Assembly: GCA_013214965.1 (NCBI GenBank)
Contig: JABSRU010000030.1
Coordinates: 1 to 55,739 of the forward strand
Direction: 5' to 3'
Length of the DNA: 55,739 nucleotides
Source of the DNA: Gammaproteobacteria bacterium
Lineage (GTDB): Bacteria; Pseudomonadota; Gammaproteobacteria; Enterobacterales; Psychrobiaceae
In this document: positions 5,110 through 36,240 of the stretch, in pieces
Position numbering within the stretch: the first letter of the stretch is position 1
How the letters are laid out: each line of letters begins with the position of its first letter
Made by a program: the position numbers and the translations under genes
The notes under the pieces: model-generated
Seen by the model: the letters and a program-made list of their open reading frames with translations, nothing else
The model's database searches: none
Told to the model about the DNA's origin: nothing

Positions 5110-5656
5110 ATTATTTACTTTCTATAGTTAATAAGCTTAATCAGTGCCTCACGATACTGACTTGATGAGTTCATAACCGTTGATGTTCAAAATAAATAGC
5201 ATATTTTAGCTTGATGCTAGCTGTAATATCGGCGAGAGTTTATTCCTCATCACATTGAACAGAGCCTAGTTATATCCTCGGTTACTGCACTGTTCATTTG
5301 TAACAAAGCCATCATCATTTTGTAATTGAAAAAATGTTGTAGAGTTATAACCTTTAGCTATGATTAATATAATGTTATAAAATTCAATAGATTAATTCGC
5401 TGTAATTGTTGGTTACTAAGATCTAATTTTAATGGCTAATAATCAGAGTAGACTTTAGGGCTATCATGCTACACGTCATAACATGTCAACATAAAATTGA
5501 TGAAATATTGTAAGTGACTCTAAGAAATAAACAGCATTGTCACCCAACTCTGGGTTAATGATTGAAAATATGAACAATCTCAACTATGGTCTTTCTATAT
5601 TCATTGTTTAGAGCGGGCGTAGGACTCTCTCAAAAATATTATATGAGGAGGTTTAC
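5110..5656. other. 547-bp gene-poor region
   Basis: No convincing ORF is seen here. It must hold the promoter of the minus-strand PLP gene and that of the plus-strand VOC gene, but no strong sigma-70 pair could be assigned. A weak copy of the palindrome found near 28000 and 31800 occurs at 5475-5487 (11 of 13 bases). GAACAG near 5258 and CTGTTC near 5310 form a loose inverted pair. Just before the VOC gene there is a very strong Shine-Dalgarno (GAGGAGG). Confidence 0.5.
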
Positions 5657-23329: not shown

Positions 23330-24040
23330 CTATAAAAAATCCGTTAAATCGGTGTTAGTGTCTATTATTTGCTTTTGAATCTTACCGGTAAATAAATATC
23401 CTTCTTTTTCGCCAATGAGTAACAACTTATCATTGATTAATGTCAGAGCGCTACCCTCTTGAATCCCTATAATGGGTGTAATTGGGTCGACGCAGGTAAA
23501 CTCTAATAAACGCTGCGCGCGAGTTTCACCGTTGTGCCCTGGTGCTTGATAATCTGAGTAGTGCGGGTTTAATTGAAATGGCACCAATGCTAGGGCATTA
23601 AATGAAGGGGGCTCTATTATCGGCATATCATTGGTGGTACGGATAGAGAGCCCTGCGATATTTGAACCAGCACTCCAGCCAATGTATGGGAGGCCTTGTT
23701 CAACTTTGTTTCGAATCAGCTCGACTAAGTCAAAATGGTAGAGTTGATGTAATAAATGAAAGGTATTACCGCCGCCCACCATAATGGCTTGTGCTTGTTC
23801 AACGGCCTGTTTCGGATCTTTTGTATCGGCGATATTAAGGATGGTTAAATTAAGCGGTGCCAGTGCCTTGGTGACTTTATCCGTGTATTGTTGATAGCTG
23901 ATTGAGACACCGGCATAGGGAATAAATAATATTTCTGTGATGCTTTGAGTCAAAAAATGTTGAATATGCGGTAATGCATGGCTCAAATATTGGGTGCTGC
24001 CAGCGCCCGAACTGCTTAAAAGTAATAATTTTTTCATCAT
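23330..24040 (-). CDS. pepE: Dipeptidase E (peptidase S51)
   Basis: Cytoplasmic Asp-specific dipeptidase of 236 residues. The nucleophile serine is in [11 protein letters not shown], the typical S51 elbow; [13 protein letters not shown] and [19 protein letters not shown] are diagnostic of PepE, the latter carrying the catalytic His region. It begins [12 protein letters not shown]; either Met could start, and no clear SD distinguishes them. First gene of a likely pepE-elyC unit. Confidence 0.9.
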
Positions 24041-25407: not shown

Positions 25408-25836
25408 TCAACTATTACGCTTTTTCAATTCGGCTGTTAGTTGTGATATCTGCTCTAAAATTTGTGCATTTTGACGACGTAATTCACGGTTTTTAACATT
25501 AGTATCTGAAAACCCCATGATTTTACTCGCAATTAAAGCACCGATATATCCCATCATGCCAACACCGATATAAAACATGGCGGTAACGACCACATAGCCG
25601 CCAGCAGTCGTTGGATAGTAATCGCCAAAGCCGATGGTTGAACTTGCCATAATCAAGACCCAGAATGCTTCACCGTAGGTGTGAATATTAGCGTCTGGAT
25701 TCGCTTGCTCAAACTGGAGCACTAGCGCTGCACCGATAGCGATAATGATATAGATAATTATCATACCCATCATGGCTAAATAGCGGGTTTTATAGTTGGT
25801 CACGCCATACTCATCGACATCATGTAGTGCACTCAT
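25408..25836 (-). CDS. Two-TM potassium-channel-like protein
   Basis: 142 residues: TM1 (MMGMIIIYIIIAIGAALVL), a pore helix and filter FWVLIMASSTIGFGDYYP, TM2 (VVVTAMFYIGVGMMGYIGALIA) and a C-terminal coiled coil rich in Q, L and E. TIGFGD is a standard variant of the K+ filter TVGYGD, so a tetrameric K+ channel without RCK or voltage sensor is expected; gating could run through the coiled coil. It is the last gene of the YjfI/PspA block, 10 bp after the RHH-like gene. Similar channels are known companions of this PspA group, which makes a role in envelope-stress or turgor response plausible. Confidence 0.85.
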   Translation of the reverse strand: MSALHDVDEYGVTNYKTRYLAMMGMIIIYIIIAIGAALVLQFEQANPDANIHTYGEAFWVLIMASSTIGFGDYYPTTAGGYVVVTAMFYIGVGMMGYIGALIASKIMGFSDTNVKNRELRRQNAQILEQISQLTAELKKRNS

Positions 25837-25846
25837 TTGTTATCCT

Positions 25847-26188
25847 TTATTGCTCATTCTTCTTTGCAAAACTAATTAACTCATCGACTACAATTTTCTT
25901 TATTTCTAATTGTTGTGATGATTCAAGTGAATATTTTTGAGCGAGCAACTCATAATCTTGTTGATTAAGAGAGACCGTTAGGCGCGGACGTTTCGGCCTT
26001 TTTGAGCACGGTAAACCAAGAATATGACGAATTTGATCGGAGGGACTCAGACCTTGCTCTAGAGCTTGTCGTCTGATTTGGTATTGGATTTTTTCATCCA
26101 TGTCAAAAGCGACTTGAGTGGCTTTTATCGCTTTAGTCGCGTTTTGCCATTTTTCAGGCAACACGTTTTTTTTGGTTGTTTTAGTCAT
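25847..26188 (-). CDS. Small protein with two ribbon-helix-helix-like segments
   Basis: 113 residues, basic N-terminus. Residues about 26-62 read strand-helix-turn-helix (QVAFDMDEKIQYQIRRQALEQ, then GLSPSDQIRHILGLP), as in MetJ/Arc/CopG proteins. A basic linker (CSKRPKRPR) leads to a second similar unit (LTVSLNQQDYELLAQKY, then a helix ending VVDELISFAKK). I infer a DNA-binding regulator, possibly acting at the palindromes of this locus. It lies between yjfK (19 bp) and the channel gene (10 bp), clearly co-transcribed. Homology was judged by eye only; a structural or protein-binding role is also possible. Confidence 0.6.
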   Translation of the reverse strand: MTKTTKKNVLPEKWQNATKAIKATQVAFDMDEKIQYQIRRQALEQGLSPSDQIRHILGLPCSKRPKRPRLTVSLNQQDYELLAQKYSLESSQQLEIKKIVVDELISFAKKNEQ

Positions 26189-26207: not shown

Positions 26208-26858
26208 TTAGGACGCTGGCCAATATTGGCGAATATCTGAAATAGGTCGATATAAGCACAGTATGACATCTGTTTCGCCATCTTGATAGACCTCAGCCTC
26301 AATCCCTTGTTTTTCATCATCAGTTAGCGCGCTGTAACGTTCAAAGGATTCGCCTTGATCGCTTCCTTCAAATTCACTAATTTGTTCCGTACGATAATCT
26401 TTTTGATGAAAGTAACCAACAGCGGCAAATTCACTTTGACGATATTGTTGACCAAGCCATTGTCCAAACTCATTCGATGGTTGCTTGACATCGATAATCG
26501 CATTGCCGGATTCATCAAAGAGCTGACCAAACTGTTCGATATCGAAAATATTTTCAACTTGCTCTCGTGTCACCTTGATTGAAAACACCAGTGACTGAGC
26601 ATCATCATCGTCGATTGACAAGAAGATAAGTTGATCATCGTTACCGCGCAACACCCACTCACATGATTTACTAAACTCATACTCATAGGTGTTAACCTGC
26701 GTAACTTCAAGGGATTGTCCTTTCAGTTGGCTTGGCAGGGCGAAGCTGTCATCAAGGGTGATGATATCGCCCTTGATTAGCTTGCTTGGGTGGTCCAGTT
26801 GACGTTCTGGCTGGCTATCTTTAGTTGATTTACCAAATAACTTAGCGAGAAACCCCAT
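26208..26858 (-). CDS. yjfK: YjfK family protein (DUF2491)
   Basis: 216 residues, matching E. coli YjfK in size. It starts MGFLAKLFGKS, like a membrane-surface amphipathic helix, followed by a mainly beta domain (LIKGDIITLDDSFALPSQLKG; SCEWVLRGNDDQLIFLSIDD) and an acidic C-terminal domain ending in LCLYRPISDIRQYWPA. The yjfI-yjfJ-yjfK order is that of the E. coli yjf operon. No enzymatic motif is visible; it is thought of as a partner of the PspA-like YjfJ. Start is 3 bp after the yjfJ stop, so translational coupling is likely. Confidence 0.78.
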   Translation of the reverse strand: MGFLAKLFGKSTKDSQPERQLDHPSKLIKGDIITLDDSFALPSQLKGQSLEVTQVNTYEYEFSKSCEWVLRGNDDQLIFLSIDDDDAQSLVFSIKVTREQVENIFDIEQFGQLFDESGNAIIDVKQPSNEFGQWLGQQYRQSEFAAVGYFHQKDYRTEQISEFEGSDQGESFERYSALTDDEKQGIEAEVYQDGETDVILCLYRPISDIRQYWPAS

Positions 26859-26861
26859 GAC

Positions 26862-27551
26862 TTACCCTTGCTTTGCTTTTAAACGTTCCAGTACCGAATT
26901 GGCACTCGCCTGTTGTTCACCGATGCCGGCTTGAGCTAATTTGTCCTTTAATGACTTGTCGCTGCCTTCAGCCTCTAATGCGTCAGCGGCTTTCATTCGG
27001 TCATCAAAATTTTGTTGCTTAGCTTTAATGCGCTCGAGAGACTCTTTAGCGTTTAGCAACTTAGAGTTACTATTACTAAAATTAGTGGTAATCGCTGCGG
27101 TTGCTTTTTGAACACTTTCAGTGGTCTTTACCATACTCAATTGGCGTTGGTAGTCTGCTAGCTGGCGCTCAGTGGTTTTGACTAATTCTTTTAAGCGTTG
27201 AGCACTGGTGTTATAGCTTTCATTCGCTTGTTGTTGCTCATTAAGCTCGACTTCTAATCCTGCTATTTTCTCAGCAACTTCTAAAGCTAAGGCTTCATTA
27301 CCTTGGCTCAATGCCTGAGTAACATAACCTTCATGCTCGGTAACACTACGTTGCACGCGAGTGACTTCCCGCTCTGCTTGCATTTGCTTGGCCATGATAT
27401 CGGTTAAGTCACGTTTTGCTTTCGTTAAGTGGTTTTCGGCATCACGAATTTCTTGAGCGAAAATACGGGTCGCATTAGCATCAACAATAGCTTCACCAGC
27501 TTCTGTTGCGCCACCACGTAATGCAGTAATAATTTTTCTAAATATACTCAT
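26862..27551 (-). CDS. yjfJ: PspA/IM30-family protein (YjfJ)
   Basis: 229 residues, almost all helical and charged: MSIFRKIITALRGGATEAGEAIVDANATRIFAQEIRDAE, then long coiled-coil helices (ALALEVAEKIAGLEVELNEQ; RLKELVKTTERQLADYQRQL). This is the ESCRT-III-like PspA/Vipp1 architecture, with an N-terminal amphipathic helix for membrane binding. Family members polymerise on damaged inner membrane and preserve the proton gradient. The usual pspF/pspBC genes are absent; the neighbours are YjfI, YjfK, a DUF350 protein and a spermidine-synthase-like enzyme, so it belongs to the second PspA type. Confidence 0.88.
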   Translation of the reverse strand: MSIFRKIITALRGGATEAGEAIVDANATRIFAQEIRDAENHLTKAKRDLTDIMAKQMQAEREVTRVQRSVTEHEGYVTQALSQGNEALALEVAEKIAGLEVELNEQQQANESYNTSAQRLKELVKTTERQLADYQRQLSMVKTTESVQKATAAITTNFSNSNSKLLNAKESLERIKAKQQNFDDRMKAADALEAEGSDKSLKDKLAQAGIGEQQASANSVLERLKAKQG

Positions 27552-27563
27552 AATAGTTCTCCG

Positions 27564-27977
27564 TTAAATAAGGTAGTCGGTCATTTCGTTGATGACTTCA
27601 AGCGAATTGTCACTTAAGACGGCTAATTCATGTTCAACATCTGATAATGAAGAACCGACCGATAATGCGCCGAAAATGACGTATTTATTGTCAATTTTTG
27701 AAAATGAAGATAAAGGCATTGGAATATTCATTTCAACCATGGCTTCTAACATTTCGCTGCGGCTCGATTGTTTGACTTCGTCTTCACCCCAAAGGTAAGC
27801 GATACATAGAATTTGGTCTTCAGTCACCGAGACAAAAATGGGTAATTCTTCTCGGTCAATAATGGTGACTTGTAACACATCAACTTCACCAGCGATTGGT
27901 AGGCAATCAAAGGTAAAACCGGTGTGACTGATGTCTGCTAATTCGTTTAAATAATTTGCAATAGTGTGAATATTCAT
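27564..27977 (-). CDS. yjfI: YjfI family protein (DUF2170)
   Basis: 137 residues from ATG 27977. An upstream in-frame ATG (28031) lies inside a palindrome and lacks an SD, while AAAGGA stands correctly before 27977, so the shorter form is preferred. The sequence MNIHTIANYLNELADISHTGFTFDCLPIAGEVDVLQVTI and ILCIAYLWGEDEVKQSSR fits DUF2170, resembling the CesT/secretion-chaperone-like alpha/beta fold. First gene of the promoter-proximal yjfI-yjfJ-yjfK-RHH-channel group. Role unknown; probably assists YjfJ. Confidence 0.78.
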   Translation of the reverse strand: MNIHTIANYLNELADISHTGFTFDCLPIAGEVDVLQVTIIDREELPIFVSVTEDQILCIAYLWGEDEVKQSSRSEMLEAMVEMNIPMPLSSFSKIDNKYVIFGALSVGSSLSDVEHELAVLSDNSLEVINEMTDYLI

Positions 27978-27990
27978 TCGATGTCCTTTT

Positions 27991-28003
27991 GACATATTAT
28001 GTC
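27991..28003. promoter_or_regulatory. Palindromic operator candidate, copy 1
   Basis: GACATA-T-TATGTC, perfect 6-bp arms around one base. It stands just upstream of the yjfI SD, beyond the predicted transcription start. With its flanks (TGACATATTATGTCT) it is identical to the copy at 31811-31825. Confidence 0.7.
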
Positions 28004-28012
28004 TGAGTGATG

Positions 28013-28041
28013 AATTTAAAACATTTGACATATTATGTCAA
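28013..28041 (-). promoter_or_regulatory. Predicted sigma-70 promoter for yjfI operon
   Basis: On the minus strand, TTGACA (28041-28036) is followed after 17 nt by TAAATT (28018-28013). The -35 lies inside the long palindrome and copy 1 lies downstream of +1, a layout that suits repression by a dimeric regulator. Confidence 0.55.
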
Positions 28042-28048
28042 ATGTTTT
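28018..28048. promoter_or_regulatory. Palindromic operator candidate, copy 2 (31-bp perfect palindrome)
   Basis: Arms AAAACATTTGACATA (28018-28032) and TATGTCAAATGTTTT (28034-28048) are perfect inverses around base 28033. The core is the same as in the other two copies. It overlaps the -35 and spacer of the likely yjfI promoter. It lacks a loop, so an operator is more likely than a terminator. Confidence 0.75.
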
Positions 28049-28076
28049 TTGTTAATTAACCTATACGGAACTCAGG

Positions 28077-29804
28077 TTAATTATTATCTTGGTACCAACT
28101 GTTATTGAGACCTTGTTGTGATTCCCACGCTTGTTGATGGTAACGATAAAGGGTGAAGCTGCCAAGTCGATTGACCTTAATTTTATCTTTATCTTGATAA
28201 AAAGTTTTTGAAAATTCAAAGCTTGCTTGGATCAAGCCTCGCGTTAGCCAAGGCTCAAACGGTTTTATTGGTTGGCTGGCTAAACGTTGCCTAGCACTAA
28301 CGCCCATCGGAGTGGCGATGGTCCAACCCCATTGACCAAAACTTGGAACATTAAAATTAAATTGTTCAACATTTTTCCAACCTGCAGCGCTAACGGTGTT
28401 GCCAATGCTAATAAAGGCATTTTTGGCGTGAAAGGGGGAAGTTGATTGAATCACCATTGCACCATCAGGACTCAGTAAGTATTTTAATTTTTGATAAAAT
28501 ACTTGAGAGTACAATTTATTAAGATCCGGATGGGACGGGTCCGGTAGATCGACAATAATGGTGTCATAAACCCGTTGCTGACTTAATAATTGGTCAATGC
28601 CATTAAAGGCATCGTTATTGATTATTTCGACCCGGTTATCATTGAGGGAATCGTGGTTTAATTTTAATATTGCGTTAGCAATGTTTGATGCGACGATTTT
28701 CTGTGGCTGCTTAAACAGCGCGATAACATCAGGGTCTAAATCCATTAATGTGACACTTTTGGGTTGCCATAACAATACCTCTCGCAGGGCTAAACCATCA
28801 CCACCACCGATAATTAAAATGTTGTCTTGGCGAGCTGAACTAGCCAGCGCAGGATACACTAAAAACTTATGGTAAATGTGTTCATCATTGGCGGAAAATT
28901 GCAGTCGACCGTTTAAATAGAGGTTATAACTGGGCATGGTTTGGTCGTTAATATGGCGCTCGGTTAAGACCACTTGGGCAAAACGGGTTTGTTGCTGATG
29001 CACCACTTTATCGAGATATAATAAGTTATTGAGCTCTTTGCTCCATTGACCACCATAACTAAAAATTGCCACGACCAGTATCGATGTCGCAATATGACCG
29101 GCGAGTAATAATTGATGATATCTAATATGCTGGCGATACCTTAACCAAAAAACAAACCCGGCCAGCAAGTTAGCACTGGCGGTAATACTGGCACTAAGGT
29201 TAATTTCAATGGATAACATTACGGTGATCCAAATCGCGGCACCAATGCCAGCACCGATATAATCTGCGCCATAAATAGTTCCGGTATTATGCACGAGATG
29301 CTGGGCATGAATATGCTCACGTACTCGGGCTATTAATGGGATCTCCATGCCAATAAAACAGCCGAGAATCGCACCAATCACATAGGGACTGTAGTGCGTA
29401 ATTTGATGTAGTGTTTTTATCAAGCCACCTTGAGGCAGTGAGTCGGGCGGAATATTAAAGGATTGGGAAATTATTTGTGGCATTAATTGCACAAAGGCGA
29501 TCATCGATGAAATGATTAAAATGGCACTACAGCCAATGATCGCAATAAATAACTCTAACCAAGCGAATCCGGTAAAAGCGCAACGAATTTTTCGCGCCAT
29601 AAATGAGCCAATACCCATGGAAACGATCATGATCCCAATCATGGTGTAAATTGCTGATTCAACTGCACCAATAACTCGGCCAGCATAGTGAGACAGTAAA
29701 TACTCGTAAATCAAGCCACAGCCAGCTAAGACCGCCATGATAGTGATTAGAATAATATCGTCGAGTAAATGAGGAGAGCGGCTAGTGCTTTTTTTTTGCA
29801 TCAA
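28077..29804 (-). CDS. Membrane-bound spermidine/spermine synthase-like aminopropyltransferase
   Basis: 575 residues. The N-terminal half has about seven TM helices (IILITIMAVLAGCGLIYEYLLS; YVIGAILGCFIGMEIPLIA; GADYIGAGIGAAIWITVML). The C-terminal half is a spermidine-synthase Rossmann domain: NLYLNGRLQFSANDEHIYHK, the SAM-pocket motif ILIIGGGDGLALREVL, LMDLDPDVI, and the catalytic-region VDLPDPSHPDLNKLYS. Soluble SpeE transfers aminopropyl from decarboxylated SAM to putrescine; membrane versions occur in PspA-linked loci and their product is not established. It follows the DUF350 gene across a 13-bp hairpin and precedes the yjfI promoter. Confidence 0.85.
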   Translation of the reverse strand: MMQKKSTSRSPHLLDDIILITIMAVLAGCGLIYEYLLSHYAGRVIGAVESAIYTMIGIMIVSMGIGSFMARKIRCAFTGFAWLELFIAIIGCSAILIISSMIAFVQLMPQIISQSFNIPPDSLPQGGLIKTLHQITHYSPYVIGAILGCFIGMEIPLIARVREHIHAQHLVHNTGTIYGADYIGAGIGAAIWITVMLSIEINLSASITASANLLAGFVFWLRYRQHIRYHQLLLAGHIATSILVVAIFSYGGQWSKELNNLLYLDKVVHQQQTRFAQVVLTERHINDQTMPSYNLYLNGRLQFSANDEHIYHKFLVYPALASSARQDNILIIGGGDGLALREVLLWQPKSVTLMDLDPDVIALFKQPQKIVASNIANAILKLNHDSLNDNRVEIINNDAFNGIDQLLSQQRVYDTIIVDLPDPSHPDLNKLYSQVFYQKLKYLLSPDGAMVIQSTSPFHAKNAFISIGNTVSAAGWKNVEQFNFNVPSFGQWGWTIATPMGVSARQRLASQPIKPFEPWLTRGLIQASFEFSKTFYQDKDKIKVNRLGSFTLYRYHQQAWESQQGLNNSWYQDNN

Positions 29805-29831
29805 GATTACACATATTAAGAAGGTAGGTAT

Positions 29832-29863
29832 CGCCTCAATTAGCCAGTCTGCTGATTGAGGCG
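29832..29863 (-). promoter_or_regulatory. Intercistronic hairpin
   Basis: A 13-bp stem with one G-U pair (29832-29844 with 29851-29863) closes a 6-nt loop between the DUF350 stop and the spermidine-synthase-like start. No T-run follows, so an attenuating or transcript-processing stem is more likely than a terminator. Confidence 0.65.
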
Positions 29864-29871
29864 GCGAAAGG

Positions 29872-30780
29872 TTAAGCCATTAAAGACATTAAAATTAGTG
29901 CGACAGCAATGCTTAACACAAACTCTAAAGTGGCAACGCCAATATTATGTTGAAAATCAACTTCCTCGGTTAAGTTAATCCGTGACAGGACGATTTTCTT
30001 AATCAGTGGTACCAGAATATACAGCAGCGTCACCATCAAACTACCGTATGTTAGCCAGCCTAATATATTGGTGACATAAGCGGTTGGTTGATAGTCCAAG
30101 AAATTACTGGCACCAGTCAGGGTAAAGCCCATCGCAATTAAAAATCCTGCATGACGAATAGCTAACGCGACCTGACCGTCAATCAATGCTTGTTGGAAAC
30201 AAGCGCCTTGATTATCCTTTCGATAAGCACGTTCCCGTAAGCGGGTAATAACCACCAGTAATGCTTGTGAAATCGCAAAACCGGACAATATGGCAATCAG
30301 GGTATTTACATTCAAGCCGTGAGCCCAAATTAGGGTTGCTCGAATTATTAACGCTGTAGTGACTAAAGCTGCGGCATCGACGATAGCAACACTCATGTTA
30401 CCTTTCTCAATTTCAGCCGCTTTATTCAAACCAGGCAGCGCCCATTTATCATGAATAATTCGTCCCGCTTTAATGAGGACTAAGCCAAGTACCCCGTAAA
30501 TACTCATGCCAATGGCTTCTTGAGTAAAAGAAACCGCCGACTCGCCGGTAATCGCACCCGTTAAGACAATGGCTAATGCCAGTAAGCTGCCAGATAGTGA
30601 AACACCAAAAGCAAAATTATCTTTGGTCGCCAGCTCTTCGGTGGTATTAACACCAGCCCATAAACCAGAGATAAAGCGCATGGCACACAGTAAGATGATT
30701 GCAATAACTAAGTCGATCACCAGAAAACCAGCCATTTCGCTATGTTGGGTAATTAATTGTTGTAATTGTTCCATTGACAT
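29872..30780 (-). CDS. Double DUF350 inner-membrane protein
   Basis: 302 residues with about eight TM helices in two similar halves. Each half shows the DUF350 pattern of a charged residue pair followed by a Gly/Ala-rich helix: TKDNFAFGVSLSGSLLALAIVLTGAI in the first and LIDGQVALAIRHAGFLIAMGFTLTGA in the second, and NMSVAIVDAAALVTTALIIRA against NIGVATLEFVLSIAVALIL. E. coli YjfL has one unit; here two are fused. Function unknown; DUF350 proteins are regular partners of PspA-like YjfJ. It begins 8 bp after the upstream lipoprotein gene. Confidence 0.82.
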   Translation of the reverse strand: MSMEQLQQLITQHSEMAGFLVIDLVIAIILLCAMRFISGLWAGVNTTEELATKDNFAFGVSLSGSLLALAIVLTGAITGESAVSFTQEAIGMSIYGVLGLVLIKAGRIIHDKWALPGLNKAAEIEKGNMSVAIVDAAALVTTALIIRATLIWAHGLNVNTLIAILSGFAISQALLVVITRLRERAYRKDNQGACFQQALIDGQVALAIRHAGFLIAMGFTLTGASNFLDYQPTAYVTNILGWLTYGSLMVTLLYILVPLIKKIVLSRINLTEEVDFQHNIGVATLEFVLSIAVALILMSLMA

Positions 30781-30788
30781 GATTCCTG

Positions 30789-31757
30789 TTATTTTCCGCG
30801 ACTAACGCCACGTGATGTGGTGCTGCGACTGTTTCTAAAGCTCGAACTATTTGAGTAACTTGAGGTTGAACGTTGCTTTCTAAATTTGTTGCTGCTACTA
30901 AAACCTGTGCCTGCTGCCGATTTAGCTTGGATACTGTTGCTTGATAATCGGCTTGCCCCAACTCTGGATTTACTGTAAGGCGTGGCGTAACGCTGACCAG
31001 TACTAAATTTCTTTTTAGTTCTGTTCCACACTTTTTGTTGCTGATTTCGTTGTTTAGGTGAGCTGTAGCGATAGCGACCATAATCATTATAGTAGCTATA
31101 TCCACGATTACGCCCCCAACGATCATAACCAATACCGCCACGGGTTAAACTCGAAAACATCGCGTACATGCCATACCATTGCCAAAATGATGTGCCATTA
31201 CTGCCAGACGACCAATTGCCATAGTTAGGGTTGCCGACTAGCTGTGAACCAGCACCAAAATCACCAGAACCATTAGCATATTGCTCTTGTGCTTGGCTAA
31301 TTGAATTAACCCGCGCTAATGAGCCCTTTGACATATCGGCCATCACATTTAACGGGTCACTTAAGGCATCATTAAATAAATTGGGCGAAAGCGCCTGATT
31401 GATATTTTCAAGTTCATCAAGCAATTGCTCTTTACTGGTGAAGTTTTCGGAGTTTGCTGTGGCACTCACTCGCTTGCTTAGGCCATTAAATAAAGCACCT
31501 TGACTAGTACCGTCTTTGGCCAATTGATTTAATAACTCCGTTAATTCAGGGCGCTGTTGAGTCAATATTTTTGCATATTGGCTTAACAGCATCGCGTTGC
31601 GGATCTGACCACGGTCAAGTTGCTGTCCTAAACTGGTTAATTTAGTTGTATTTTGTTGGCTTAATAAATTAATGCTATCTGCTATTGGATCACTACAGCC
31701 GACACCGAGTAATAAAATGAACATTAAACAAAAAATTCTTATGGGCTTACCTGCCAT
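30789..31757 (-). CDS. Lipoprotein with Ser/Arg/Tyr-rich low-complexity tail
   Basis: 322 residues with a lipobox LGVGC near residue 21. The first ~150 residues are helical (LTSLGQQLDRGQIRNAMLLSQYAKIL), the middle is Gly/Trp/Tyr-rich (NPNYGNWSSGSNGTSFWQWYG; GYDRWGRNRGYSYYNDYGRYRY), and the last ~90 residues are basic and Ser-rich (RKQRSTSSYSNSSSFRNSRS). It may bridge membrane and periplasmic polymers. It is first in the block, with AGAGG before ATG and a palindrome about 55 bp upstream. Not DUF1190-like by eye; no known family recognised. Confidence 0.75.
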   Translation of the reverse strand: MAGKPIRIFCLMFILLLGVGCSDPIADSINLLSQQNTTKLTSLGQQLDRGQIRNAMLLSQYAKILTQQRPELTELLNQLAKDGTSQGALFNGLSKRVSATANSENFTSKEQLLDELENINQALSPNLFNDALSDPLNVMADMSKGSLARVNSISQAQEQYANGSGDFGAGSQLVGNPNYGNWSSGSNGTSFWQWYGMYAMFSSLTRGGIGYDRWGRNRGYSYYNDYGRYRYSSPKQRNQQQKVWNRTKKKFSTGQRYATPYSKSRVGASRLSSNSIQAKSAAGTGFSSSNKFRKQRSTSSYSNSSSFRNSRSTTSRGVSRGK

Positions 31758-31810
31758 AAAGACCTCTTCGATGATATTGTTACAAAAATAAGATTTAGTT
31801 GTATCAGTTT

Positions 31811-31825
31811 TGACATATTATGTCT
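31811..31825. promoter_or_regulatory. Palindromic operator candidate, copy 3
   Basis: TGACATATTATGTCT in the 83-bp divergent space between the lipoprotein gene and glnE. Its 13-bp core is identical to copies 1 and 2. It overlaps the upstream in-frame ATG of glnE, supporting the later glnE start. Confidence 0.7.
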
Positions 31826-31840
31826 AATGGAAATGAAATA

Positions 31841-34735
31841 ATGAACACTCACATCATACTGAAAAATTCTATCGGCTTGCCTAACTCGCTGTTTAAGCTA
31901 GCTTGTGAACGCTATTATGAGATCTACGAGATAAATGGTCAACCATTGCAACTGCTTAGTTCACTACAGCGAGATAAGTTACTAGAAGTATTAGGGTTAA
32001 GTGATTTTGTTTTTACCCAATTATTACGTTATCCGCAATGGATAACGGATATATTCGAATCGAGTTATCTTGATAACCAGCAATTAGAATTGATGATGCC
32101 ACAACGATTAACAGCGTTAATTGATGATTGTGTTGAGGAAGCACGGTTTGATCAGGCGATAAGGCAATGTCGTAATTATTTTCAGTTAGTGATTGCATGG
32201 CGCGATTTATGCCATCTTGGTGAGGTTAAAGATTCTCTACGTCATATTGCGACGCTAGCTGAATTATTGATTATCGCCACTCGAGATTGGCACTATCAGC
32301 AATTAGCCAACACTTGGGGGGTTCCTTGTGATGAACACGGTGAGCAGCAGCCATTGTTGATTTTAGGTATGGGTAAGCTCGGTGGGCGGGAGTTAAATTT
32401 CTCATCGGATATTGATCTTATTTTTACCTTTCCTGAGCACGGTCAAACTCAAGGTGGTCGTCGAAGCACCGATAATCAACAATTTTTTGTCAAATTAGCA
32501 CAAAAATTGATTAATTCGCTCGATAAATACAGTTTTGAAGGCTTTGTTTATCGTGTTGATATGAGATTACGGCCCTTTGGTAATTCGGGTCCGCTAGTGG
32601 TGAGTTTTAATGCACTGGAAGATTATTATCAGTCACAAGGCCGTGAATGGGAACGTTATGCCATGGTTAAAGCACGAGTTTTAGGGCTCGATGGTGACTT
32701 TTCAGCACAACTTAGTCAATTATTAAGGCCGTTTGTGTTCCGGCGCTATATTGATTTTAGTGCGATTGAATCATTGCGGCAAATGAAGCAATTGATTAGC
32801 CACGAAGTTAGGCGAAGGGGTTTGGTTGATAACATTAAGCTCGGTGCTGGTGGCATTCGTGAAGTTGAATTTATTATTCAGGTCTTTCAAATGATCAGAG
32901 GAGGTCGAGAACCTTTATTACGACAACAGTCTTTGTTGGCTACCTTAAAACATTTTGAGACCTTGGCTATATTCCCCGCTGATATCTGTCATTCACTGGC
33001 CGAAAGTTATTTATACTTACGCCAAGTTGAGCATTATTTACAGCAATTCAACGATCAGCAAACTCAAACGTTACCGGACAATCCTCAAGACTGGCAACGA
33101 CTTATTTACTTGATGAATAATGATGACGAAGATGACTTTAGAGTCACGTTAAATCGTCATTTAAGTTTTATCACCAGTCAATTTTACGCGGTTATTGGTG
33201 AGGATGAATCCGAAAATGAACAAGAAAATAAAGAGTTAAACCTATTAAAATTAGTGTTTGAGTCTGATGCGGACTTTGATGGTGAATCTATTTTGTTTGA
33301 GCTCGATTGTCGTGACCCTCAACCATTATTTGAGCAGCTCCAACTCATAAAAATTGATTTAGCTAAACGCTCAATGGGACCGCGAGGACGGGAAGTTTTG
33401 TCACGGTTAATGCCTAAAATATTACTGGCTATTATCGCAAGGCCGCAAGCAGGTATATTACTGGCAAGGCTCGGTGGGCTATTGAGTAAAATAGCGACGC
33501 GAACAGCTTATATTGAGCTTCTGGAAGAAAACCCCGGCGCGCTAACCCAGCTGATTAAATTGTGTGATGCCAGTAGCTGGATCAGCGATAAATTGACTCA
33601 TTTTCCGATGTTACTCGATGAATTACTCGACCCTGAATTATTATATAATCCAACATCGTTACTGGAGTATGAGGCGGAACTTCATCAATATTTGTTACGG
33701 ATCCCTGTTGATGATATGGAACAAATGATGGAGGCTGTACGTCAATACAAGCAGTCGCAACAACTGCGGATTGCGGCCGCTGATATTACCGGTGTGTTAC
33801 CGCTGATGGCGGTCAGCGATCATTTAACGGCTCTGGCACAAGCCATTGTTAAACAAACTATTGAGATGGCTTGGCAGCAAATGGTGGCCCGATATGGTCA
33901 GCCAGTCCATTTAGGAGAAGATAAAGGATTTGCCGCCATTGGTTATGGCAAGTTGGGTGGGATGGAATTGGGTTATAGCTCCGATCTTGATATGGTGTTT
34001 GTTCATTGTGCTAAGCCTAATACAGTGACTGACGGTGATAAGTCGATAGCCAGTAATCATTTCTATTTAAAATTAGCGCAACGGATCCTCCATTTATTTA
34101 TTACTCGCACTAATACTGGCATTTTATATGAAGCGGATATGCGTTTACGGCCCTCGGGTAATTCTGGATTGATGGTTTCCGATATTGAGACTTTTATTGA
34201 GTACCAGTATCAAGAAGCTTGGATTTGGGAGCATCAAGCGCTAATTAGGGCGAGAGTTGTCGTCGGTGATCAATACTTAAGTCATAAATTTGATGCTGCT
34301 CGGTTTAACATTATTACTCAAACGAGAGACTTATCATCACTACAACAAGAAGTGGTGAAAATGCGTGAAAAAATGCGTGAGCATTTAGGGTCTAAAAATT
34401 TAACTCAGTTCGACTTAAAGCAAGACACCGGTGGGATTGCTGACATTGAGTTTCTCGCCCAATATTTAGTGTTAGGCTACGCACAGCAGTATCCAGCGTT
34501 GGCTAAAATCTCAGATAATGTCCGAATTTTTGAAACACTATCAAGTTGTGGAATGTTAGATGATGATACTGCTGCTGCATTAAATGATGCCTATTGTTGC
34601 TACCGCGATAAAGGACATCGCTTGGCGCTACAGCAGCAGAAAAATACCGTAGCAAGTGACGAATTTCATCAAGAGAAACAACTGGTCACTAAGCAATGGC
34701 GGTATTGGTTACTTAGTCCTCCAAGTGGAGTTTAA
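31841..34735 (+). CDS. glnE: Glutamine synthetase adenylyltransferase/deadenylase
   Basis: Bifunctional enzyme that adds AMP to and removes it from glutamine synthetase in response to PII. 964 residues from ATG 31841, close to E. coli GlnE. Two nucleotidyltransferase domains are clear: LILGMGKLGGRELNFSSDIDLIF in the first (deadenylase) and AIGYGKLGGMELGYSSDLDMVF in the second (adenylylase), each with the GxSD(I/L)DxxF metal Asp pair, followed by RVDMRLRPFGNSG and EADMRLRPSGNSG. An upstream ATG at 31820 sits in a palindrome and lacks an SD. Its stop overlaps the stop of the convergent His-rich gene by 3 bp. Confidence 0.95.
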   Translation: MNTHIILKNSIGLPNSLFKLACERYYEIYEINGQPLQLLSSLQRDKLLEVLGLSDFVFTQLLRYPQWITDIFESSYLDNQQLELMMPQRLTALIDDCVEEARFDQAIRQCRNYFQLVIAWRDLCHLGEVKDSLRHIATLAELLIIATRDWHYQQLANTWGVPCDEHGEQQPLLILGMGKLGGRELNFSSDIDLIFTFPEHGQTQGGRRSTDNQQFFVKLAQKLINSLDKYSFEGFVYRVDMRLRPFGNSGPLVVSFNALEDYYQSQGREWERYAMVKARVLGLDGDFSAQLSQLLRPFVFRRYIDFSAIESLRQMKQLISHEVRRRGLVDNIKLGAGGIREVEFIIQVFQMIRGGREPLLRQQSLLATLKHFETLAIFPADICHSLAESYLYLRQVEHYLQQFNDQQTQTLPDNPQDWQRLIYLMNNDDEDDFRVTLNRHLSFITSQFYAVIGEDESENEQENKELNLLKLVFESDADFDGESILFELDCRDPQPLFEQLQLIKIDLAKRSMGPRGREVLSRLMPKILLAIIARPQAGILLARLGGLLSKIATRTAYIELLEENPGALTQLIKLCDASSWISDKLTHFPMLLDELLDPELLYNPTSLLEYEAELHQYLLRIPVDDMEQMMEAVRQYKQSQQLRIAAADITGVLPLMAVSDHLTALAQAIVKQTIEMAWQQMVARYGQPVHLGEDKGFAAIGYGKLGGMELGYSSDLDMVFVHCAKPNTVTDGDKSIASNHFYLKLAQRILHLFITRTNTGILYEADMRLRPSGNSGLMVSDIETFIEYQYQEAWIWEHQALIRARVVVGDQYLSHKFDAARFNIITQTRDLSSLQQEVVKMREKMREHLGSKNLTQFDLKQDTGGIADIEFLAQYLVLGYAQQYPALAKISDNVRIFETLSSCGMLDDDTAAALNDAYCCYRDKGHRLALQQQKNTVASDEFHQEKQLVTKQWRYWLLSPPSGV

Positions 34736-35352: not shown

Positions 35353-36240
35353 ATGCCTATTATGAATCAGGGACAGTGGTTAGTGAACGGTGATTTATCA
35401 ATACTTGAGCAGGTCGACATATTTAACACCGACATGAGTAAGGGTGCTGGACGTTATCACTTTTATTTTTCTTACGGCTGCCCAATTAGTCATCGTTTAC
35501 TCTTGTTATGGTCGATGTTCGATCTTAAACATGCCATTAGTGCATCGTCGGTTGATAGTTGTGTCAATTCATGCGGCTGGGAGTTTAGCGATGCGTTTCC
35601 GGATCCGCTTTATCGAAAAACCTTATTACTTGAACTCTATCGTGCAACCAAGCCTGATTATAGCGGTGAGATTAAGCTGCCATTATTGTGGGATAAGCAA
35701 AGACAGAGCATTTCCTGTAATCAGCCTGAACAATTAATTACCGCTTGGGCGAGTGATTATGGGCCCGCTATTTTAGGTAGTGACTTAGGGGTGAATAATT
35801 CAGCGGTGACCGAGTATAACGAATGGCTTGATGAAAATTTTTGCCAGAAAATCAAACAAATTAGTCAGGCTTCTTGTCAATCACATTATCAAACATTGTG
35901 CCTTGAGTTATTTGAGTCGTTGGAGCTTATTGTAAAAAAACTAGGGGCTAATTCTTTCCTCCAGGGGGAGCAACTAACACTCTCTGATATTTATTTTTTC
36001 CCTTGTTTAATTCGTTTTGATTTAATTTATTATCCTTTATTTAAAACGAATTTGAAATCGATTGCTCAATATCCAAATTTGGTCGCCTATATTTTTAGAA
36101 TACTGGAGATCGATGGTATAAAGAATACTATTGATATTGAACATATTAAGCAGCATTATTATCAATCGACGATATATCACCAATCCAATAATCTTATTCC
36201 GCTGGGACCGGATATCAATTATTTATTCCAATTTCGTTAA
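35353..36240 (+). CDS. Divergent glutathionyl-hydroquinone-reductase-like (YqjG/ECM4) protein
   Basis: 295 residues with a GST fold. The N-terminal opening GAGRYHFYFSYGCPISHRLLLLW corresponds to the YqjG active-site region; the nucleophile Cys is kept but CPWA is CPIS. DPLYRKTLLLELY, KLPLLWDK and the C-terminal GST helix FLQGEQLTLSDIYFFPCLIRFD match the family. Normal members reduce glutathionyl-hydroquinones; the loss of the Trp and of the usual 'NNGVYKCGFA' stretch (here ENFCQKIKQISQA) suggests altered specificity. Its stop overlaps the LysR gene end by 4 bp (convergent). Confidence 0.7.
   Translation: MPIMNQGQWLVNGDLSILEQVDIFNTDMSKGAGRYHFYFSYGCPISHRLLLLWSMFDLKHAISASSVDSCVNSCGWEFSDAFPDPLYRKTLLLELYRATKPDYSGEIKLPLLWDKQRQSISCNQPEQLITAWASDYGPAILGSDLGVNNSAVTEYNEWLDENFCQKIKQISQASCQSHYQTLCLELFESLELIVKKLGANSFLQGEQLTLSDIYFFPCLIRFDLIYYPLFKTNLKSIAQYPNLVAYIFRILEIDGIKNTIDIEHIKQHYYQSTIYHQSNNLIPLGPDINYLFQFR

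Follow-up and report, generated by a model that had tools for sequence, protein, structure and literature searches.

The E. coli-type Psp response relies on PspF, sigma-54 and PspA, and in other bacteria Bacillus sigma-W, LiaRS and mycobacterial ClgR exert joint control over PspA-like and other membrane genes. A second group of operons, in which pspA is joined to a gene for the CesT/Tir-type protein YjfI, was described by Ravi et al. (2024; PMC11237479). These operons share YjfI, PspA, a spermine-synthase-like membrane protein, DUF350, a lipoprotein and DUF4178, and end 'in some cases' with the gene of a ribbon-helix-helix (RHH) transcription factor; the section devoted to them names that gene only, and gives no operator, targets, promoter layout or mode of action. 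Here we describe such a locus in contig JABSRU010000030.1 (assembly GCA_013214965.1) of a gammaproteobacterium of the Psychrobiaceae, the 55,739 nucleotides of which are called the window throughout. A 13-bp palindrome, GACATAWTATGTC, lies at both promoters of the block, and comparison of sequences indicates, with a probability that we put at about 80%, that it serves as operator for a dedicated repressor, the tandem RHH protein encoded at 25847-26188 in the same block. Operon and RHH gene are already in print; the operator, the promoter layout and the regulon are new as far as the literature was searched.

The window carries the DUF2170-PspA dyad together with speE-like, DUF350, lipoprotein and DUF4178 genes, the combination that marks the group of Ravi et al. 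It shares with the E. coli-type Psp system a PspA-centred membrane protection, and an operon with a PspA equivalog in one related genome (G014) carries the site as well, but the conserved promoter found here is sigma-70-like by its hexamers, with an operator on the −35 box. The systems of sigma-W, LiaRS and ClgR differ from the RHH one in regulator type and logic. In the bac operon of Pseudomonas aeruginosa, as far as the consulted part of its description goes, a YjfI/DUF2170 gene also stands beside a pspA-like gene and BacA is a YjfI relative, though a sigma-54 site was proposed there (PMC10948618); the YjfI protein of the window (P0001) scored 57 bits with the BacA model, the cut-off of which is 300. 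No description of the operator, promoter layout or regulon, nor any account of the control of YjfI-type PspA operons in this group, was found in the papers searched, supplements and curated regulon databases aside. A search with the motif letters returned one unrelated plant paper, psp, htpX and GACATA are unmentioned in the regulon-reconstruction literature covered by a term search (supplements and RegPrecise aside), and a term search of PMC9239133 found neither RHH, DUF2170, yjfI nor Shewanella.

GACATA-N-TATGTC is the only one of 23 distinct odd-centred 13-bp perfect palindromes that is repeated in the window, where it occurs three times and the others once. Its copies, of the form GACATATTATGTC, start at 27991, 28027 and 31812, so that all three 13-mers (27991-28003, 28027-28039 and 31812-31824) are where a first-pass annotation of the DNA had placed them, against 0.0035 copies expected by composition. 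In the 4.25-Mb genome (144 contigs) GACATAWTATGTC has eight exact copies, with 0.27 expected by composition and none for the reversed control. When up to two mismatches are allowed, 46 forward and 67 reverse matches appear where the reversed control gives 41 and 28, which indicates that degenerate matches are mostly background. The core is unlike the met box. The elements on which the argument rests are as follows, strand being given where it applies.

28027-28039: operator O1, GACATATTATGTC, overlapping the −35 element of the yjfI promoter
28018-28048: perfect 31-bp palindrome around O1, peculiar to the source genome
28036-28041, minus: −35 hexamer TTGACA of the yjfI-pspA promoter, present at this place in all 72 related pairs
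28013-28018, minus: −10 hexamer TAAATT
27991-28003: operator O2, downstream of the expected transcription start and ahead of the ribosome-binding site of yjfI
31812-31824: operator O3, overlapping TAGACA (31826-31821), the −35 region of the lipoprotein promoter, and preceding glnE
31798-31803, minus: possible −10 of the lipoprotein promoter (TGA-TACAAC), 17 bp after TAGACA; consensus in relatives TGnTATtAT
27564-27977, minus: yjfI (DUF2170)
26862-27551, minus: pspA (PspA/IM30)
25847-26188, minus: candidate regulator P0002, a tandem RHH protein of 113 amino acids

Conservation of the site was followed in 80 named loci centred on relatives of the RHH protein, reaching about 8 kb on each side and belonging to Shewanella, Colwellia, Cognaticolwellia, Thalassotalea, Moritella, Litorilituus, Parashewanella, Zobellella and Oceanimonas, among others; being the best 80 of 326, the sample leans towards close relatives. 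These loci hold 213 exact sites in 1.26 Mb. The expectation that the motif would recur upstream of orthologous genes was borne out, since two exact copies precede yjfI within 220 bp in 72 of the 75 loci with a called yjfI open reading frame; the other three have one copy (L127), none (L174) or a pair that, with its TTGACA, lies farther upstream (L193). A further 66 exact sites are found near the start of the lipoprotein gene. The spacing between O1 and O2 varies from 34 to 39 bp (36 in 34 loci, 34 in 21), so their helical phase is not fixed. TTGACA is found at O1 in all 72 pairs and at O2 in nine, and a −10-like hexamer follows it 15–17 bp downstream, mostly after TGn, giving a conserved promoter TTGACA-15/17-TAaaTT; in the window, GACA is common to O1 and to the −35 hexamer (28041-28036, minus strand). 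The first T of the hexamer at O3 is retained in 99% of cases. As had been annotated, the copy at 27991 sits between the expected start and the ribosome-binding site of yjfI, and the one at 31812 precedes both the lipoprotein gene and glnE. The overlap of this last copy with a −35 region, like the candidate regulator gene and the other targets, goes beyond that annotation.

The wider palindrome behaves differently. At 28018-28048 it is real and overlaps a minus-strand TTGACA-17-TAAATT promoter, as noted in the first-pass annotation, but there is no support for a meaning of the extension: at O1 of the 72 related loci the perfect palindrome spans 13 bp in 36 cases, 15 in 16, 17 in eight, 19 in six, 21 in two, 25 in one and 29 in three. 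The conserved unit is thus the 13-bp core, and the length of 31 bp is peculiar to the source genome. Nor does a fourth match, pointed out at 5475-5487, add to the set; its letters are present, but at up to three mismatches the window contains 24 matches against 21.9 ± 5.5 in shuffled sequences, no better than chance.

The site travels with the RHH gene. Among 58 relatives, 23 have the RHH gene, 23 an exact site and 21 both; the genomes with a site and no RHH gene are a draft 88% complete (G003) and one with a single site (G026). In the order as a whole, surveyed in 247 genomes at least 90% complete and with genomes outside the listed matches counted as RHH-negative, the RHH gene occurs in 79 and the site in 71, and the reversed control matches three genomes. 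Exact sites are present in 60 of the 79 RHH genomes (279 sites) versus 11 of the 168 others (12 sites; Fisher p 4e-29, relatedness ignored). The association persists within families of mixed content, where the site is found in 7/7 genomes with the RHH gene vs 1/12 without it in f7, 2/2 vs 0/17 in f8 and 4/5 vs 0/13 in f25. The 19 RHH genomes without an exact site are 18 of the 19 f12 genomes plus G244; a variant, GACATTWAATGTC, stands at O2 in all ten f12 loci examined, and G244 carries GACTTATTATGTC, as do Zobellella and Oceanimonas. Close yjfI relatives (E < 1e-20) are found in exactly the same 79 genomes, and 13 further genomes have weak yjfI relatives only and no site, save a single one in G103.

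Beyond the order, a survey of 276 genomes of the class gave the RHH gene in 12 and the site in 12, with eight in common; of the 264 others, four carry a single site, and seven genomes are matched by the reversed control. In five of six distant site-bearing genomes the RHH locus carries the sites directly before its yjfI, as tandems with a spacing of 15–46 bp, one of which (G319) consists of an exact and a near copy. In the sixth, G412, they precede an additional yjfI located on a different contig; the RHH locus itself shows a copy with one mismatch. This additional yjfI (L274, G412:C153, 16-496) is next to a speE-like gene and is preceded by two exact operators with a spacing of 18 bp. We also observed that in two f92 genomes (L267, L268) both operator copies before yjfI have CC for the first GA, and that in other orders RHH relatives occur with neither yjfI nor pspA nearby and no recognisable site (L266 in G502, L269 in G457); these relatives may read another operator.

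Among the window genes compared in the 80 loci, no recognisable DNA-binding protein other than P0002 is conserved in the block; window genes beyond the 8-kb reach, such as a LysR gene at 36237, are outside that comparison. The predicted fold of P0002 resembles those of the single-chain tandem RHH proteins TraY, AvtR and single-chain Arc (VIA-align), with two strand-helix-helix units that would give an RHH dimer fold in one chain, at about 12–17% identity to these best matches. F TraY is described as a single chain that adopts the RHH dimer fold, and subsites of R1 TraY include ATGT and ACAT (PMC12117103, consulted in part). According to the portion consulted of its description (PMC5569661), AvtR recognises imperfect inverted repeats and acts as a repressor of its own gene. 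P0002 differs from these in being chromosomal, linked to membrane-stress genes and associated with a perfect 13-bp palindrome. In PLSDB plasmids neither YjfI nor the RHH protein was detected at E 1e-5. Neither P0002 nor any of the 21 members of its set A2 reached the cut-off of a Pfam or NCBIfam family, though two distant members gave weak sub-cut-off matches to RHH_1 (E 0.006 and 0.017) and to a NikA-like model (E 0.012 and 1e-4). A profile comparison with four ParD relatives yielded no match, and two RHH profiles gave no convincing match to sequences of solved structures. The presumed outward strand residues Q25, A27, R69, T71 and S73 are invariant in the 34 sequences of set A3, a list that shrinks to Q25 and R69 in the wider set. 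By eye, no covariation of strand residues with the operator variants of f12, f25 and f92 was seen. An RHH-like fragment with an internal stop adjoins an intact copy at G201:C79:51101-51214.

Taken together, the conserved site, its small target set and its co-occurrence with an operon-encoded DNA-binding protein support the earlier reading of a dedicated regulator at the locus, and P0002 is very probably the protein that binds there. The word 'dimeric' in that reading needs amendment, since the prediction for P0002 is a single-chain pseudo-dimer, and two chains per palindrome would be expected, with one GACAT/ATGTC half read by each single-chain RHH pair. The bound protein probably acts as a repressor, because a consensus −35 box lies under one operator, a second operator lies past the start, repression is the usual role of RHH proteins and the gene belongs to the operon. 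Bound to O1 and O3 it would mask the −35 boxes of the yjfI-pspA-DUF4178-RHH and lipoprotein-DUF350-speE promoters respectively, and at O2 it would lie across the transcript start. The repressor would limit its own level, as its gene is within the operon that it would control.

Five further sites exist in the genome: three precede a Tim44-domain gene (L001), nhaA (L002) and htpX (L003), one separates the carbonic anhydrase gene from ppk (L007), and one stands upstream of a YqiJ-like and then a flotillin-like gene (L008). Of the sites listed in the 58 relatives, a subset was covered by 40 fetched stretches. Sixty-six stretches holding sites other than those of the yjfI promoter gave 93 site-gene pairs, divergent sites being counted on both sides. 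By phmmer, htpX accounts for 10 of the 93 pairs (10 genomes; f1, f6, f13, f16, f23, f25), nhaA for 10 (nine genomes; f1, f7, f23) and NfeD, SPFH or YqiJ-like genes for 13. Tim44, M16 peptidase, AIM24 and pspA have two pairs each (for AIM24 and pspA one gene with two sites), pepE-like genes four, three of them facing a listed htpX, and ppk, carbonic anhydrase and an ion channel one each; 45 pairs concern other genes. The labels HtpX, NhaA, SPFH, NfeD, Tim44, M16, AIM24 and PspA were verified on representatives. Those of YqiJ or flotillin type in L008, L065, L084 and L207 were assigned by eye, Pfam giving none, and L065 weakly matches FloT. Since the same site precedes htpX, nhaA, the YqiJ-like/flotillin-like operon and the Tim44-domain gene, release of the repressor would induce membrane-maintenance genes jointly, and the whole would constitute an autoregulated PspA/SPFH/HtpX regulon, in which binding, repression and autoregulation are inferred from sequence.

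In G014, the PspA-equivalog (TIGR02977) operon at 1355-2513 of L063 has a site 170 bp before its first gene, which encodes a small secreted protein and is followed by pspA. This suggests that in the G014 lineage the regulator reaches a classical-type pspA too. As a separate observation, a gene resembling dipeptidase E by eye diverges from htpX across the operator in L080, L225 and L232, and the window gene at 23330-24040, near the block, has the same look.

The other members of the block and its neighbours are as follows.

26208-26858, minus: DUF4178-like gene, matched under the Pfam cut-off
25408-25836, minus: ion-channel gene, kept in 49/80 loci
28077-29804, minus: membrane spermidine-synthase-like (speE-like) gene, polyamine aminopropyltransferase model
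29872-30780, minus: DUF350 gene
30789-31757, minus: lipoprotein gene heading the second operon, in 72/80 loci, with no Pfam match
31841-34735, plus: glnE, the divergent neighbour, its start set by comparison with L095

The minus strand thus reads lipoprotein, DUF350, speE-like, yjfI, pspA, DUF4178-like, RHH and ion channel, with glnE opposite. The layout is not the same everywhere. In two f8 genomes (L206, L207) yjfI-pspA-RHH makes up the start of the operon, YqiJ-like, flotillin-like and large open reading frames come next, and two exact sites precede yjfI in each; an f17 locus (L214) has the f8 gene order on a contig that ends at yjfI, short of the promoter. In G030 the RHH gene is apart from the yjfI block, beside DUF4178 and a channel-like gene, and neither locus has a site. 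The sites of that genome are at a pspA copy (two, 36 bp apart), htpX, nhaA and a yqiJ-like gene, so that they do not simply mark yjfI.

The G030 arrangement bears on an alternative that we consider rather improbable, namely that the operator belongs to a factor encoded elsewhere, for example a TetR-, GntR- or MarR-type dimer, and that the RHH gene is a co-inherited passenger. An RHH gene without a site of its own would fit this view, an odd-centred 13-bp palindrome is typical of helix-turn-helix dimers, and, with the RHH gene and close yjfI in the identical 79 of 247 genomes, anything inherited with the block would look alike. However, sites and block appear together in single lineages (the block in 2/19 genomes of f8, 7/19 of f7 and 5/18 of f25), the other family members having neither, so that an unlinked factor would need joint gain each time. 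Moreover, no other DNA-binding gene is conserved among the window genes in the 80 loci, and linkage to the RHH gene is kept in two different operon layouts.

It is about equally improbable that the RHH protein does bind the site but mainly activates, or does both according to dose as for AvtR, which the consulted part of PMC5569661 describes as repressor and activator. The 70 distinct sites outside the locus, a count that sets aside L095 (the lipoprotein/glnE site) and L087 (a site in an RHH-less genome), lend this some room: TTGACA is formed on one strand or the other in 31 of them (12 expected), so that −35 overlap is common but not universal and many sites stand elsewhere relative to the promoter. 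TTGACA is combined with a −10-like hexamer in 19 of the 70 (background rate of the hexamer, 22%). At the yjfI promoter, on the other hand, the consensus −35 inside the operator in 72/72 pairs and the second operator past the expected start should block polymerase, which favours repression.

The palindrome at 28018-28048 is also a stable predicted RNA hairpin (−14.9 kcal/mol on the plus strand, z −4.7; −14.4 on the minus, z −5.7), with a T tail on the plus strand and long arms that are not conserved in relatives. That it would be the terminator of the upstream gene rather than an operator, for which this folding and the terminator-like tail might speak, is nevertheless very unlikely: the upstream speE gene is on the minus strand, where the scan found no T tail, and the 13-bp core also occurs at other promoters. 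As a general explanation the hairpin was rejected, the arms being unconserved (13 bp in 36 of 72 loci) whereas the core and the −35/−10 are kept. A mobile or dispersed repeat, in favour of which no point was found, was rejected as having a negligible probability, since the eight copies in 4.25 Mb are not scattered as a repeat would be but have different flanks, precede different genes and occupy orthologous positions across families.

How the repressor would be released is more tentative. By analogy with PspA and PspF, the YjfI-PspA pair is an attractive candidate for the inducing signal. A full circuit, in which the tandem RHH repressor holds down PspA, YjfI, SPFH/NfeD, HtpX and NhaA, the pair of CesT/Tir-like chaperone and membrane-binding protein releases it on membrane damage, and the products of the sensor itself thereby control the repressor, is a speculative possibility of fairly low probability. 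Used as a reporter site, the proposed 13-bp operator would open the inducing signal to direct test.

In many related marine bacteria, control of Psp type exerted on membrane stress by a tandem RHH repressor most likely represents a switch so far undescribed in the papers searched, and it points to a conserved DNA-binding family that bears no Pfam or NCBIfam name here. If true, it would supply bacteria of the Shewanella, Colwellia and Psychrobium types with a regulator of known target list and exact binding site, and would join PspA, SPFH/NfeD proteins, HtpX and NhaA in one response.
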